Position numbers and translations under genes: made by a program. A stretch of DNA of 64,000 nt from Lentisphaerota bacterium. GTDB lineage: Bacteria > Verrucomicrobiota > Lentisphaeria > Victivallales > Victivallaceae. Shown here piece after piece: positions 19,632 to 23,968 of the stretch. The stretch is from assembly GCA_015061615.1 (NCBI GenBank), contig SUWE01000003.1, positions 1 through 64,000 on the forward strand. The letters are read 5' to 3'. The first letter of the stretch is position 1. Each line of letters begins with the position of its first letter. The notes under the pieces are model-generated. The model did not search any database. It worked only from the letters and a program-made list of their open reading frames with translations, and had not been told where the DNA came from.

Positions 19632-20291
19632 ATGGTGAAATTTTCTGCCGCCGCCGGAGCTGTACTTCTCGTCTGCGCCGGATGTTATCAAACCGATCTT
19701 GCCAACCCCCGTGTCAGTCAGGAAGAGCAGGCATGGGAGAATATCATCCGTCAGAGCTATCCGGGATACAAAGCGCCCCAGAAGACCTCCCGTTCCTTCA
19801 AGGGACATACCGAAAACCGCGTTTCAGCTGTTATCGTTGAAACTCCGGTGAAGGCGCTTGATGATCCTGCTCCGCTTGCTGATGATGCCGCAACAGAGAT
19901 ACCTGCTGTCGCAGAAGATCCTGCGGAAAAGCCTGCGGAAACTCCCGCAGTCGCGGAACCCGCTGCGGAAACTCCCGCAGTTGCTGAAGTCAAAGCCGAT
20001 AAACCTGCGGAAACTCCTGCAGTTGTTGAAGTCAAAGCCGATAAACCTGCGGAAGCGGTCAAACCTGCGGATAAGCCTGCGGAAAGCAAACCTGCCGCGG
20101 CGGTCATGCCGCCGGATCCGACGAACAGCACTGTGTACGTTGTCAAATCCGGGGATACTCTCGGCTCGATCGCCCAGAAAACCTACGGCAATGCGCGTTA
20201 CAGCGATGTGATTTTCAAGGCGAACTCCGATATTCTCAAAAATCCCGACAAGCTCAGCCTCGGAATGAAACTTATCATTCCCAAGCTCTGA
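19632..20291 (+). CDS. LysM lipoprotein with Pro-Ala-rich linker
   Basis: A 219-residue lipoprotein (lipobox LVCAG-C18). Residues 75-155 form a low-complexity linker built from PAETPAV and VKADKPAE units, probably extended and crossing the periplasm. Residues 168-217 are a LysM domain (VYVVKSGDTLGSIAQKTYGN to LGMKLIIPK), which in the family binds peptidoglycan glycan strands. It likely tethers the outer membrane to the wall or scaffolds envelope enzymes; partners are not known. It lies 23 bases after fabF. Confidence 0.88.
   Translation: MVKFSAAAGAVLLVCAGCYQTDLANPRVSQEEQAWENIIRQSYPGYKAPQKTSRSFKGHTENRVSAVIVETPVKALDDPAPLADDAATEIPAVAEDPAEKPAETPAVAEPAAETPAVAEVKADKPAETPAVVEVKADKPAEAVKPADKPAESKPAAAVMPPDPTNSTVYVVKSGDTLGSIAQKTYGNARYSDVIFKANSDILKNPDKLSLGMKLIIPKL
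19920..20092 (+). repeat. Intragenic repeats coding the PAETPAV/KADKPAE linker
   Basis: Within the LysM lipoprotein, GCGGAAACTCC-type units recur about every 30-42 bases, and a 42-base unit coding KADKPAETPAVVEV is present nearly twice. The copies differ at synonymous sites, so length variation between strains is possible. Confidence 0.75.
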
Positions 20292-20301
20292 ACATGATGC
20301 G

Positions 20302-21249
20302 ATGAGTGCTGTAAAGCGTTTTTATTTTGAACCGGGCTTCTCCCTGCGTGCCGCCGGCATGGGGGATGAAGTCCGTTTGCTTGACCGCATCAGGAACATT
20401 TATTCTGTTTCTGCGGCGGCGAGGGAAAACTGGGTCGAATTTACCGGTGAAGATGCTCAGGTCGATGCGGCGCTGCATGTGCTGGATGAGATCCAGACGC
20501 TTTTTCTTCTGCGCAGGCACGAGCTTGACCGCAGCGATGTGGAGTCGCTGTTGAAAAGTTCTGCAACCGGGAGTGTGAAAAACTTCTGGGAGTCAAGAGT
20601 CCGGGTCGGACCGGGCAAAAAAGATATCCTGCCCCGTTCTGCACGGCAGAAGGAGTATCTTGCGGCGATAAACAAACATGATGTTGTTTTCGGGATCGGT
20701 CCTGCCGGAACCGGCAAGACTTATCTGGCGATGGCAATGGCGGTTTCGATGTATATCAAAGGTGAGGTTTCCCGCATAATCCTCACCCGTCCGGCACGGG
20801 AATCCGGTGAAAGACTCGGATTTCTGCCCGGTTCGCTTGAGGATAAAGTTTCCCCGTATCTGCGCCCGCTTTACGATGCGCTTTTTGATATGATGCCGCA
20901 GGAAGAAGCCGCGGCGCTCATTTCCCGCAATATTATTGAAGTTGCTCCTCTTGCGTTCATGCGCGGGCGGACGCTGAACAACGCTTTTATTATTCTGGAC
21001 GAGGCGCAGAACACCACCTGTGAACAGATGCTGATGTTCCTCACCCGCATGGGATTCGGTTCCCGGTGTGTCATAACCGGCGACCCGACCCAGTCCGATC
21101 TGGCAAAAAATGAGCGCTCCGGTCTGGAAAAGGCGCTTTCTACCCTGAAGAAGATCCGCGAGATCGGATTTGTCTTTTTTTCTGCGCAGGATGTGGTGCG
21201 CCACTGTCTGCTGGAAAAGATCATCACTGCATATACCGATGGAGAGTAA
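20302..21249 (+). CDS. PhoH family ATPase (YbeZ-like)
   Basis: A 315-residue P-loop ATPase without a PIN domain. Residues 1-80 are the short N-terminal domain found in YbeZ-type proteins. Walker A is GPAGTGKT at 133-140 and Walker B is FIILDEAQNTT; TGDPTQSD is the sensor segment. YbeZ works with YbeY in RNA metabolism in characterised bacteria, and ybeY lies two genes downstream here. It starts ten bases after the LysM gene stop and is followed seven bases later by the HD gene. Confidence 0.93.
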   Translation: MSAVKRFYFEPGFSLRAAGMGDEVRLLDRIRNIYSVSAAARENWVEFTGEDAQVDAALHVLDEIQTLFLLRRHELDRSDVESLLKSSATGSVKNFWESRVRVGPGKKDILPRSARQKEYLAAINKHDVVFGIGPAGTGKTYLAMAMAVSMYIKGEVSRIILTRPARESGERLGFLPGSLEDKVSPYLRPLYDALFDMMPQEEAAALISRNIIEVAPLAFMRGRTLNNAFIILDEAQNTTCEQMLMFLTRMGFGSRCVITGDPTQSDLAKNERSGLEKALSTLKKIREIGFVFFSAQDVVRHCLLEKIITAYTDGE

Positions 21250-21255
21250 CCGCTG

Positions 21256-23529
21256 ATGAGTTTCAAAAAAATAATCCAGTATTTCCGTCAGAAACTGGTC
21301 AATGAAAGTTATATCGAAGAGAGTCTGGAACAATCCAAAGTGCCGGTCATTCTGGTGCTGGTGATGATCTGGATGGTCTCTGCTGTGCTGCTGCTGCTTT
21401 CCGAAAACCGCCAGCGTGATCTGACGGTATGGACACACGGTCAGCGTTCACCGTTTTCTTTCACTGCCCGCATAGATTTTGATTACGAGGACTCCGCCGC
21501 CACAGAAAAAGCGCGCAATGCCGCAGGCAGAAAAGCTCCTTTGATATACCGTATAAATGCGAATGCGGCAAACGAAACCGCACTTGAAATAGATCACTTT
21601 CTTTCCGGTATTTTGCAGCGGGAGCGGATGGAGCAGGATAAAAAAATTTTTGTGCCTGACCCCAATCCGGGGAGCCGTCTTGCGGAAAAGGTCACCGATT
21701 TTTCCCTGTTGGCACGCCAGTACCGCGCTCATCAGGAGGATTTTGACCGCCGCATAAAAGATATGCTCCACAACGGTATCGCCGATGATGAACTGGTGAA
21801 AAATGCCGCCGGGAAACGTTCCTCACGCGTCATTTCTCCGGATGATAAAACCTATTACTACGATCATCTGCCGCCGGCAGTTTCCGATTGCGCCCAGACG
21901 GCGGCGGAGCTGTTGAAACTTTCCGAATCAACGAAAACGGAACTTATTTACTGCATCAAACAGCTTTTCGGTAAAGGCAATCTTGTTTTTGACCCTGAGT
22001 TGTCGGATAAAGAGGCATCCGCCGCATCTGCCGCAGTCAAACCGATCATCAAATCCCGGAAAAAAGGTGACCGTCTGGTGGAACGCAAACAGATAATTTC
22101 CACGGAAATCGCCGATATGCTCCGGGCGGAAAAGCAGGCGATCCCGCGCGGTTACGGGATCATACTGCTCTGCAACCGGCTGGGAGTGAGTTTTCTGCTG
22201 TTGGCAATATCGCTGTTTTTCCTTTACCGGACGTACAATAAAATCTTTTACAATCCCCGCCATTTTGCCATCGCCGGACTGGCGATCATCATCGGATTGC
22301 TGGCAAATTACGGCGCGATCCAGCTCTTTTTCTACTTCTTCCGCATGGGGATCATGCCGGAGTACGACCTGATGCTTTTCATGATGCCGCTGCCGCTGGG
22401 AGCCGCATTGCTTTCCATTCTGCTGGGCAACCGGGTGGCGCTTTTCGGAGGATTTCTGGTCGCGGTGCTTTCGTCGCTGATGATCCTGCCTGACCGGTCG
22501 CTGGAACTGGCACTGCGCTGGTTTGCGATCGTGGCGCTGATGGGATTTGCGGTACGCAATGTATCCAACTACCGCAGTTTCTTTGTCCGGGTGCTTTTCG
22601 GCGGATTCATATTGACACTTCTGGCAAATATAGATATGCTTTTTACCATGCACGGTGATATCCGGTTGATAAAGACCGCTTTTATCGCGATGGCGGCAAA
22701 CGCATTTTTCTGCGCGACGGCGGCACTGCTGCTGGTCTTTGCCTTTGAATTGATCTTCAATATGGATACAGTCCTTTCACTTACCGTGCTGGGGGATACG
22801 AATAATCCTCTGCTTGTGCGTATGCGGCGCGAAGCATCCGGAACGATGGTCCACTCACTCAATGTGGCTTCGCTTGCCGAAGGAGCGGCGGCGGCGATAA
22901 ATGCCAACTCCGTCCGGGCGCGTGTCGGTGCGCTTTATCACGATATCGGCAAACTTGTCAAGCCGCAGTATTTTGTGGAAAACAATCCCCGCAGTCCGGA
23001 AATGTATGAGAAGATGCCGCCGCATCTGGGGTGCGCCAGGATCCGGAATCATGTTTCCGACGGTCTGGAACTTGCCCGCGAATACCGCCTTTGCCGTTTT
23101 ATCCGCGATGCGATAGCCACCCATCACGGCGATGACCGCATATCGTTTTTCTATGAACTTGCCAAAAAACAGCTTGGCGGCAATGTGCTTGAAGAACAGT
23201 ACCGTTACAAAAATGAACCGCCTTCAGGCAAGGAATTGACCATCATTGCCCTTGCTGATGCGTGCGAGGCGGCGAGCCGTTCGCTGAAAAATCCATCCCC
23301 GGCGGCGATCGAAGATCTGGTGAATGCGATTTTTCTCAAACGTATGGAAAACGGTCAGCTGCGCAACTCCGAATTGACGGCGAGGGAGCTGGATGAAGTG
23401 CGGATGAGTTTTATAGAATATCTGACCAGTATCAAGCACGAGAGAATCGAATATGAGAAGGAGGAGCATGATGATACAGCTGCACAGCCGGTGGACAAAC
23501 CGGAAACTGCCGGCACCAAAGAAAAGTGA
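21256..23529 (+). CDS. 7TM-HD phosphohydrolase (PgpH/YqfF-like)
   Basis: A 757-residue inner-membrane protein. Residues 30-50 hold one helix, residues 60-290 an extracytoplasmic domain, and residues about 300-500 a set of seven hydrophobic helices. The cytoplasmic HD domain is residues 530-720, with VHSLNVASLAEGAA, LYHDIGK (His562-Asp563) and HHGDDRISFFYEL. Family members of this layout in Firmicutes degrade cyclic di-AMP; whether this organism makes that nucleotide cannot be seen here. The phoH-HD-ybeY order is widely conserved. Its 3' end overlaps ybeY by about 60 bases. Confidence 0.93.
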   Translation: MSFKKIIQYFRQKLVNESYIEESLEQSKVPVILVLVMIWMVSAVLLLLSENRQRDLTVWTHGQRSPFSFTARIDFDYEDSAATEKARNAAGRKAPLIYRINANAANETALEIDHFLSGILQRERMEQDKKIFVPDPNPGSRLAEKVTDFSLLARQYRAHQEDFDRRIKDMLHNGIADDELVKNAAGKRSSRVISPDDKTYYYDHLPPAVSDCAQTAAELLKLSESTKTELIYCIKQLFGKGNLVFDPELSDKEASAASAAVKPIIKSRKKGDRLVERKQIISTEIADMLRAEKQAIPRGYGIILLCNRLGVSFLLLAISLFFLYRTYNKIFYNPRHFAIAGLAIIIGLLANYGAIQLFFYFFRMGIMPEYDLMLFMMPLPLGAALLSILLGNRVALFGGFLVAVLSSLMILPDRSLELALRWFAIVALMGFAVRNVSNYRSFFVRVLFGGFILTLLANIDMLFTMHGDIRLIKTAFIAMAANAFFCATAALLLVFAFELIFNMDTVLSLTVLGDTNNPLLVRMRREASGTMVHSLNVASLAEGAAAAINANSVRARVGALYHDIGKLVKPQYFVENNPRSPEMYEKMPPHLGCARIRNHVSDGLELAREYRLCRFIRDAIATHHGDDRISFFYELAKKQLGGNVLEEQYRYKNEPPSGKELTIIALADACEAASRSLKNPSPAAIEDLVNAIFLKRMENGQLRNSELTARELDEVRMSFIEYLTSIKHERIEYEKEEHDDTAAQPVDKPETAGTKEK

Positions 23530-23968
23530 ATTGCGCAGACTTGCTCACAAAGCGGCACTCGCCGCCGGATTGCCGGTCGAACCTGAGTGGGATCTGAATC
23601 TGCTTTTTGTCAATGATAAATCAATGGCAGTATATAACAGTGAGCTTGTCGGACACGAAGGAACCACCGATGTTATAACATTTTCGTACTTTGATGACTG
23701 CGACGGATATGAAGCCGGTGATACGATGATCGAACTTATCATCAATCCAGATGCGGCAGTGCGTGAAGGAGCCAGACGTGAAGGCGGTTACGCGCGGGAA
23801 ATGGTGCTGTATCTGGTGCATGGATTGCTCCACAGCGCAGGCGAAGACGATCTTTCCCCTGTTCCGCGCCGCCGGATGCGCCGCCGTGAGCGTGAATGCC
23901 TTGCCATTCTGGAAAAAGAGTTTGACTTTGATGCGGTTTTTCCCGCCGCTCCTGCGGATAATGCTTGA
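23471..23968 (+). CDS. ybeY: Endoribonuclease YbeY with altered metal site
   Basis: A 165-residue metal-dependent RNase involved in 16S rRNA maturation and ribosome quality control in other bacteria. FVNDKSMAVYNSELVGHEGT and TDVITFSY are family blocks. The metal motif normally reads HGxLHLxGYDH; here it is HGLLHSAGEDD, so two histidines remain but the third ligand is Asp. The ATG at 23471 is preferred, with GGAGG six bases upstream; an ATG three bases earlier is also possible. It overlaps the HD gene, so coupled translation is likely. Confidence 0.88.
   Translation: MIQLHSRWTNRKLPAPKKSELRRLAHKAALAAGLPVEPEWDLNLLFVNDKSMAVYNSELVGHEGTTDVITFSYFDDCDGYEAGDTMIELIINPDAAVREGARREGGYAREMVLYLVHGLLHSAGEDDLSPVPRRRMRRRERECLAILEKEFDFDAVFPAAPADNA

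Follow-up and report, generated by a model that had tools for sequence, protein, structure and literature searches.

The window analysed here, a stretch of 64,000 nucleotides of DNA from a Lentisphaerota bacterium, encodes a YbeY protein whose metal-site motif reads HGLLHSAGEDD (23819..23851, + strand). The YbeY family motif is stated as H3XH5XH (PMC8191802; papers are cited here by PMC number for statements in excerpts of their text), and the window protein departs from this three-His pattern. Counted from the sequence, the codons at its three ligand positions on the + strand are 23819-23821 (His), 23831-23833 (His) and 23849-23851 (gat, Asp), which align with H114, H118 and H124 of E. coli in that order. 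A sequence-only reading had recognised the Asp in place of the third metal-binding His, with two His kept, and the alignment bears this out. Is this Asp a peculiarity of one protein, and is a YbeY that carries it still a working one?

An intact ybeY gene in a phoH-HD context

The ybeY ORF is intact and runs from 23453 to 23968 on the + strand; its sequence contains YLVHGLLHSAGEDDLSPVPRRRMRRRE. An AAGGAGG-like Shine-Dalgarno sequence can be read immediately upstream of the ATG codons at 23468 and 23471, so that the ORF start at 23453 is probably too early and the protein has about 165-166 residues. The likely coding region is 23468..23968 (+), 166 aa from the ATG at 23468, the ATG at 23471 being equally possible. 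The anti-Shine-Dalgarno pattern was found in the draft genome at one site, with one mismatch. The protein scores 67.1 bits against TIGR00043 (curated cut-off 45) and 62 bits against PF02130 (curated cut-off 25), the latter being its sole Pfam match at E <= 0.001. It is the single YbeY match in the 2.7-Mb draft genome (84.65% complete), and phoH lies nearby.

Upstream of ybeY on the + strand are phoH, coding for a ybeZ-like ATPase (20302..21249; 302 bits against PF02562, and 201 bits against NF007827, under its cut-off of 380), and a gene for a 7TMR-HDED/7TM/HD-domain membrane protein (21256..23529; PF07697, PF07698 and PF01966 over cut-off), which overlaps the start of ybeY. We take this membrane protein to be PgpH-like. 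The matches and the intact ORF agree with the earlier claim that the gene is undamaged and stands in a conserved phoH-HD-ybeY context. The only named relative from a single-protein scan of genome contigs, the uncultured Victivallis L058, has a YbeY 65% identical to the window protein, and there too a long ORF resembling the HD gene overlaps the ybeY ORF. On the other side of phoH, the ORF 19632-20291 (+) encodes a predicted lipoprotein-like product in which, by eye, a repetitive Ala/Pro/Glu/Lys stretch is followed by a LysM-like C-terminus.

Asp at the third ligand column throughout the phylum sample

Two sets of genomes were searched. The relatives search gave matches in 56/60 genomes, the own genome counted; all 56 were read, and one, G007, whose ybeY is broken at contig ends, was dropped. 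The phylum search gave matches in 236/240 genomes, and 152 of these 236, picked to span many families and many weak scores, were read for the alignment: the own genome, 34 common to the relatives set, 27 read as loci, 60 by place and 30 by handle. With L058, the alignment comprises 173 sequences from 57 coded families and one Victivallaceae record. A further 28 check genomes were taken from the phylum matches, including the weakest and those split in two, bringing the total to 180/236 read and 56 unread. In G007, which belongs to the same genus as the window genome, the ybeY matches (L056 and L057) sit at two contig ends, and the piece that bears the motif is Asp-type.

Asp occupies the column of E. 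coli His124 in 173/173 aligned YbeY sequences of the phylum and in 28/28 check genomes; His was found there in 0/173 and 0/28. The sequence-only reading had suggested looking for relatives with the normal His, and none turned up. The 173 include 29 further loci from the genus of the window genome, all with Asp at column 124, which excludes a sequencing error as the source of the Asp in the window protein.

The neighbouring column 123 behaves differently. It holds Asp in 129/173 phylum sequences, with ten other residue types in the rest, versus Asp in 18/18 named His-type sequences (described below). Column 123 thus drifts while column 124 never varies, which argues that selection holds the ligand column itself. 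Only six columns present in E. coli YbeY are invariant in all 173: T65, D66, E107, H114, H118 and D124. Two other positions were considered as the third ligand and rejected, His at column 61, present in just 96/173, and Asp at column 123, in just 129/173, compared with Asp124 in 173/173. A PROSITE signature for the YbeY family already permits His or Asp at the third-ligand position, so the variation may be familiar to annotators.

Column 107 was also compared. Glu is found there in 173/173 phylum sequences and in 5/5 Bacteroidota, and elsewhere in 11 of 18 sequences, the remaining 7 having His. This column, in the helix leading to the metal site, may be a further clade marker.

Asp-type and His-type YbeY in other phyla

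Sequences from other phyla were chromosomal genes in plasmid-collection records, picked for taxonomic spread among the matches listed. This sampling was sparse and reached, besides Bacteroidota, only Pseudomonadota, Bacillota, Actinomycetota, Fusobacteriota and Mycoplasmatota, whose named sequences have His at column 124 in 18/18. The five named Bacteroidota (Bacteroides, Parabacteroides, Phocaeicola, Prevotella and Riemerella) have Asp124, the only state at that column, together with Leu59 and His61; three of these five sequences carry the name ybeY in their records. Three unannotated gut contigs from a phage collection gave two Asp and one His at column 124. Two unannotated faecal 'Bacteriophage sp.' records, L182 (MT839329.1) and L183 (MT836603.1), bear a Bacteroidota-type ybeY, most likely as bacterial contamination of phage records; scans of viral contigs confirmed no YbeY.

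Bacteroidota YbeY resembles the window protein in its Asp third ligand, the absence of Arg59 and the His61, and is 21-28% identical to it (three compared). It differs in having Asn or Lys at column 123 and in retaining Asp85, and no phoH or HD gene adjoins ybeY in three annotated Bacteroidota regions (flanks of 0.6-2 kb).

A tree was built from 127 rows: all 26 sequences from outside the phylum set, and 101 from within it that share less than 55% identity with one another. Columns 59, 123 and 124 were masked. Asp-type and His-type sequences fell on opposite sides of one branch, with an SH-aLRT of 99 in the quick tree. A further analysis gave the same branch a support of 100/99, and 100% of 200 bootstrap trees gave one change; these values come from 118 columns and 19 His-type rows, with many forks open, an odd letter make-up in several rows and one long branch. 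The Bacteroidota rows, which share the Asp side of the supported branch, were interspersed in the quick tree with rows from the class to which the window belongs; the phylum does not come out as one group, and descent and transfer are not distinguishable. Since the tree is unrooted, it gives no order of age between the Asp and His states. With that reservation, Asp looks like the normal and ancient state across the phylum and the sampled Bacteroidota and not like a single-genome oddity. The earlier framing of the Asp as a peculiarity of one protein therefore has to be given up, Asp being the sole state among the sampled phylum sequences and the five named Bacteroidota.

All five solved YbeY sequences found (E. 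coli 1XM5, S. aureus 7Y7O, A. aeolicus 1OZ9, T. maritima 1TVI and H. influenzae 1XAX) are His-type, with G-Y-D-H in the alignments. The PDB copy searched held no Asp-type YbeY structure, and a profile search added no solved YbeY beyond these five.

Replaced and kept residues of the active-site region

The RNase activity of E. coli YbeY is said to require H114, H118, H124, R59 and K61 (PMC5101352). In S. aureus YbeY, Arg58 is reported to stabilise a zinc-bound citrate and, with Lys60, to contact modelled RNA (PMC9895993). The window protein does not have the Arg59 and Lys61 of the canonical cleft: according to the alignment, the column of the RNA-binding Arg59 holds a Val codon (gtc, 23648..23650, +) and that of Lys61 a His codon (cac, 23654..23656, +). 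With H124, R59 and K61 all replaced, it is without three of the five residues stated as required in E. coli.

The same loss is seen across the phylum. Column 59 holds Leu in 82, Val in 45, Phe in 22, Met in 18 and other residues in 6 of the 173 sequences, with Arg or Lys in 0/173 and likewise in 0/28 check genomes. At column 61, His (96) is followed by Asp (34), Arg (13), Lys (10) and others (20), Arg and Lys together making 23/173. The branch is one without Arg59 and mostly without Lys61, so that substitutions at sites described as required in E. coli extend over a phylum. In the 18 named His-type sequences column 59 is Arg in 15, Lys in 1 and Met in 2 (Nonomuraea and Tsukamurella), and column 61 is Lys in 10 and something else in 8. 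M. tuberculosis YbeY presumably also has Met at column 59.

A coupled mechanism in which Asp124 and the loss of Arg59 covary was considered and dropped: two Actinomycetota without Arg59 keep the His, and a single branch separates all Asp-type from all His-type sequences, which leaves no independent pairs to compare.

The column of E. coli Glu137, described as a second-shell residue that interacts with His114 (PMC4231759), holds a Glu codon in the window (gag, 23888..23890, +). Of the phylum sequences, 147 have Glu there and 22 have Gln, together 169/173. The sequence-only description of the protein as otherwise intact stands for the fold, Glu137, the gene context and the single copy; the replacement of Arg59 (Val) and Lys61 (His) it had missed.

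Three further columns, those of E. coli T42, R44 and D85, form the reported S11 interface of E. coli YbeY, and all three differ in the window protein, which has Asn (23597-23599), Leu (23603-23605) and Glu (23732-23734; all +). Column 44 is variable in His-type sequences also (Arg in 4/18), while column 85 is Glu in 143/173 phylum sequences versus Asp in 16/18 named His-type sequences. Compared directly, the window protein and His-type YbeY have in common profile scores above both curated cut-offs, the predicted fold, the phoH neighbour, the first two His of the motif and, as in the E. coli protein, Met133 and Glu137. Where His-type YbeY has His124, Arg59, Lys61 and Asp85, the window protein has Asp, Val, His and Glu.

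Predicted structure

An AlphaFold2 model was built on the window protein and L058, and the best of five was used (pLDDT 80.4, pTM 0.81; the other four had pLDDT from 73.2 to 43.1). The top Foldseek matches of this model are solved YbeY proteins: 1oz9 (E 6.5e-9), 1xm5 (E 1.9e-8; TMt 0.76 with 1xm5_A) and 7y7o (E 3.4e-8). In VIA-align the model superposed on 143 residues of 1xm5_C, the E. coli YbeY, with an rmsd of 2.5 A and Z 17.6; 1oz9 and 7y7o scored Z 17.1 and Z 15.6, and zincin-like peptidases came next at Z < 8, a level that may reflect no more than a common arrangement. The predicted fold is that of YbeY, including the cleft helix that bears Arg59 in YbeY (residues 50-61 of the model); in model numbering, Val61 and His63 stand at the Arg59 and Lys61 columns. 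YfcM was not among the matches listed in the structural searches, which we give no weight either way.

Function of the Asp-type protein

Judged from sequence, model and analogy, the window protein is probably a working YbeY from an ancient Asp-type branch, with a 2-His-1-Asp metal site and a part in 16S 3'-end maturation. The sequence-only reading had also called the protein probably active, and the strict conservation lends this indirect support. S. meliloti YbeY is described as a zinc enzyme (PMC6943124). In the mechanism we propose, the two His and the Asp would most likely hold one divalent metal, with zinc as the first choice. The metal would activate the scissile phosphate or a water, and single-stranded rRNA would be cleaved during maturation of the 16S 3' end. 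The phosphate-binding roles of Arg59 and Lys61 would be dispensable or taken by other groups. Metal binding by the Asp, the metal, the catalysis and the 16S role are what we infer here from the observed sequence, conservation, context and tree and from the predicted fold. E. coli delta-ybeY is reported to be complemented by orthologues of four distant bacteria, including M. tuberculosis (PMC4047096), and this, together with the Met59 of Tsukamurella and Nonomuraea, indicates that loss of Arg59 need not abolish function.

The sequence-only reading had compared the Asp with the third ligand of other metalloprotease-like folds, and such a precedent exists in the Asp-zincins, which bind zinc via HEXXHXXGXXD (PMC3890501). 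YfcM offers another, a carboxylate standing there where YbeY has His124 (PMC4231759). Snapalysin and Acel_2062 share with the window protein the HxxxHxxGxxD spacing with Asp as the third residue, in zincins a zinc ligand, and snapalysin resembles YbeY in a conserved Met about ten residues past the third ligand (PMC3890501). The window protein nevertheless does not carry HEXXHXXGXXD: its first His is followed by Gly where the Asp-zincins have their catalytic Glu. Acel_2062 (3e11_A) aligned with the window model at Z 5.6, within the range that the tool calls common.

Against this reading stands the replacement of H124, R59 and K61 together, and RNase activity could have been lost with only a role in ribosome assembly left. 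The differences at the reported S11-contact residues count against it as well, and conservation does not identify the metal. There is some chance, though a rather small one, that two phyla mature 16S rRNA with a rebuilt YbeY site, a 2-His-1-carboxylate that maybe holds Fe(II) or Mn and not zinc, with no Arg59 and mostly no Lys61, and that either the chemistry differs or the nuclease is not the essential function.

We think it improbable that the Asp-type protein binds metal and serves in ribosome assembly but has lost the nuclease, its site being kept for structure or for contact with rRNA or protein, while another RNase trims the 16S 3' end. Such an assembly factor would suit the replacement of three out of five residues that E. 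coli YbeY is said to need as an RNase, and also the report that the RNase activity of human mitochondrial YBEY is unnecessary for rRNA processing (PMC7515705). However, a catalytic site accounts better than a relic for the fixation of Asp and both His in 173/173 sequences. Moreover, the two Actinomycetota without Arg59 keep three His, and an actinobacterial orthologue complements E. coli.

We hold it highly improbable that Fe(II) occupies a 2-His-1-carboxylate centre here and that the enzyme catalyses something different from zinc-type hydrolysis, in the manner suggested for the E. coli EF-P hydroxylase YfcM/EpmC. The precedent is a real one in that YfcM is described as having a YbeY-like fold with a His/His/carboxylate site, two His and one Glu, for which Fe(II) binding is proposed (PMC4231759). 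YfcM differs from the window protein in that its carboxylate is a Glu on the following helix, and it is described as lacking the Arg59-bearing cleft helix (PMC4231759), which is present in the window model. PF04315 (EpmC) gave no match in the window protein, whose only Pfam family is PF02130, and 0 matches in the draft genome. The absence of an EpmC match could speak for the Fe(II) centre, since an EpmA-like protein just under the cut-off is present. This EpmA/GenX-like protein lies outside the window, at G000:C65:23487-24347, and scores 283.7 bits against a TIGR00462 cut-off of 286.9. As the sole YbeY in the draft genome, the window protein presumably covers the ribosomal job, which counts against a hydroxylase. 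Bacteroides are strict anaerobes and lie within the Asp-type clade, and strict anaerobes in the clade make an O2-dependent hydroxylase unlikely.

Finally, a local mutation, a sequencing error or a decaying gene in one genome, for which nothing spoke beyond the single-sequence reading, is refuted by the relatives, with Asp in 29 same-genus loci and in 173/173 sequences, and by an intact ORF with profile scores over cut-off, and can for practical purposes be set aside.

Implications for the YbeY family

In the literature searched, which leaves out most subscription journals, we recognised no paper treating the Asp type and found no assay of an Asp-type YbeY. On this comparison, the consensus published as H3XH5XH would be better written H3XH5X[HD]. 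The window protein is itself an ordinary Asp-type member, and the main interest is the loss of Arg59 and mostly of Lys61 across the branch. A large natural clade that includes human gut Bacteroidota has Asp124 and no Arg59 in every sequence read, with Lys61 mostly gone. This clade is a clean natural experiment on which residues, or whether the nuclease itself, carry the role of YbeY in ribosome maturation.
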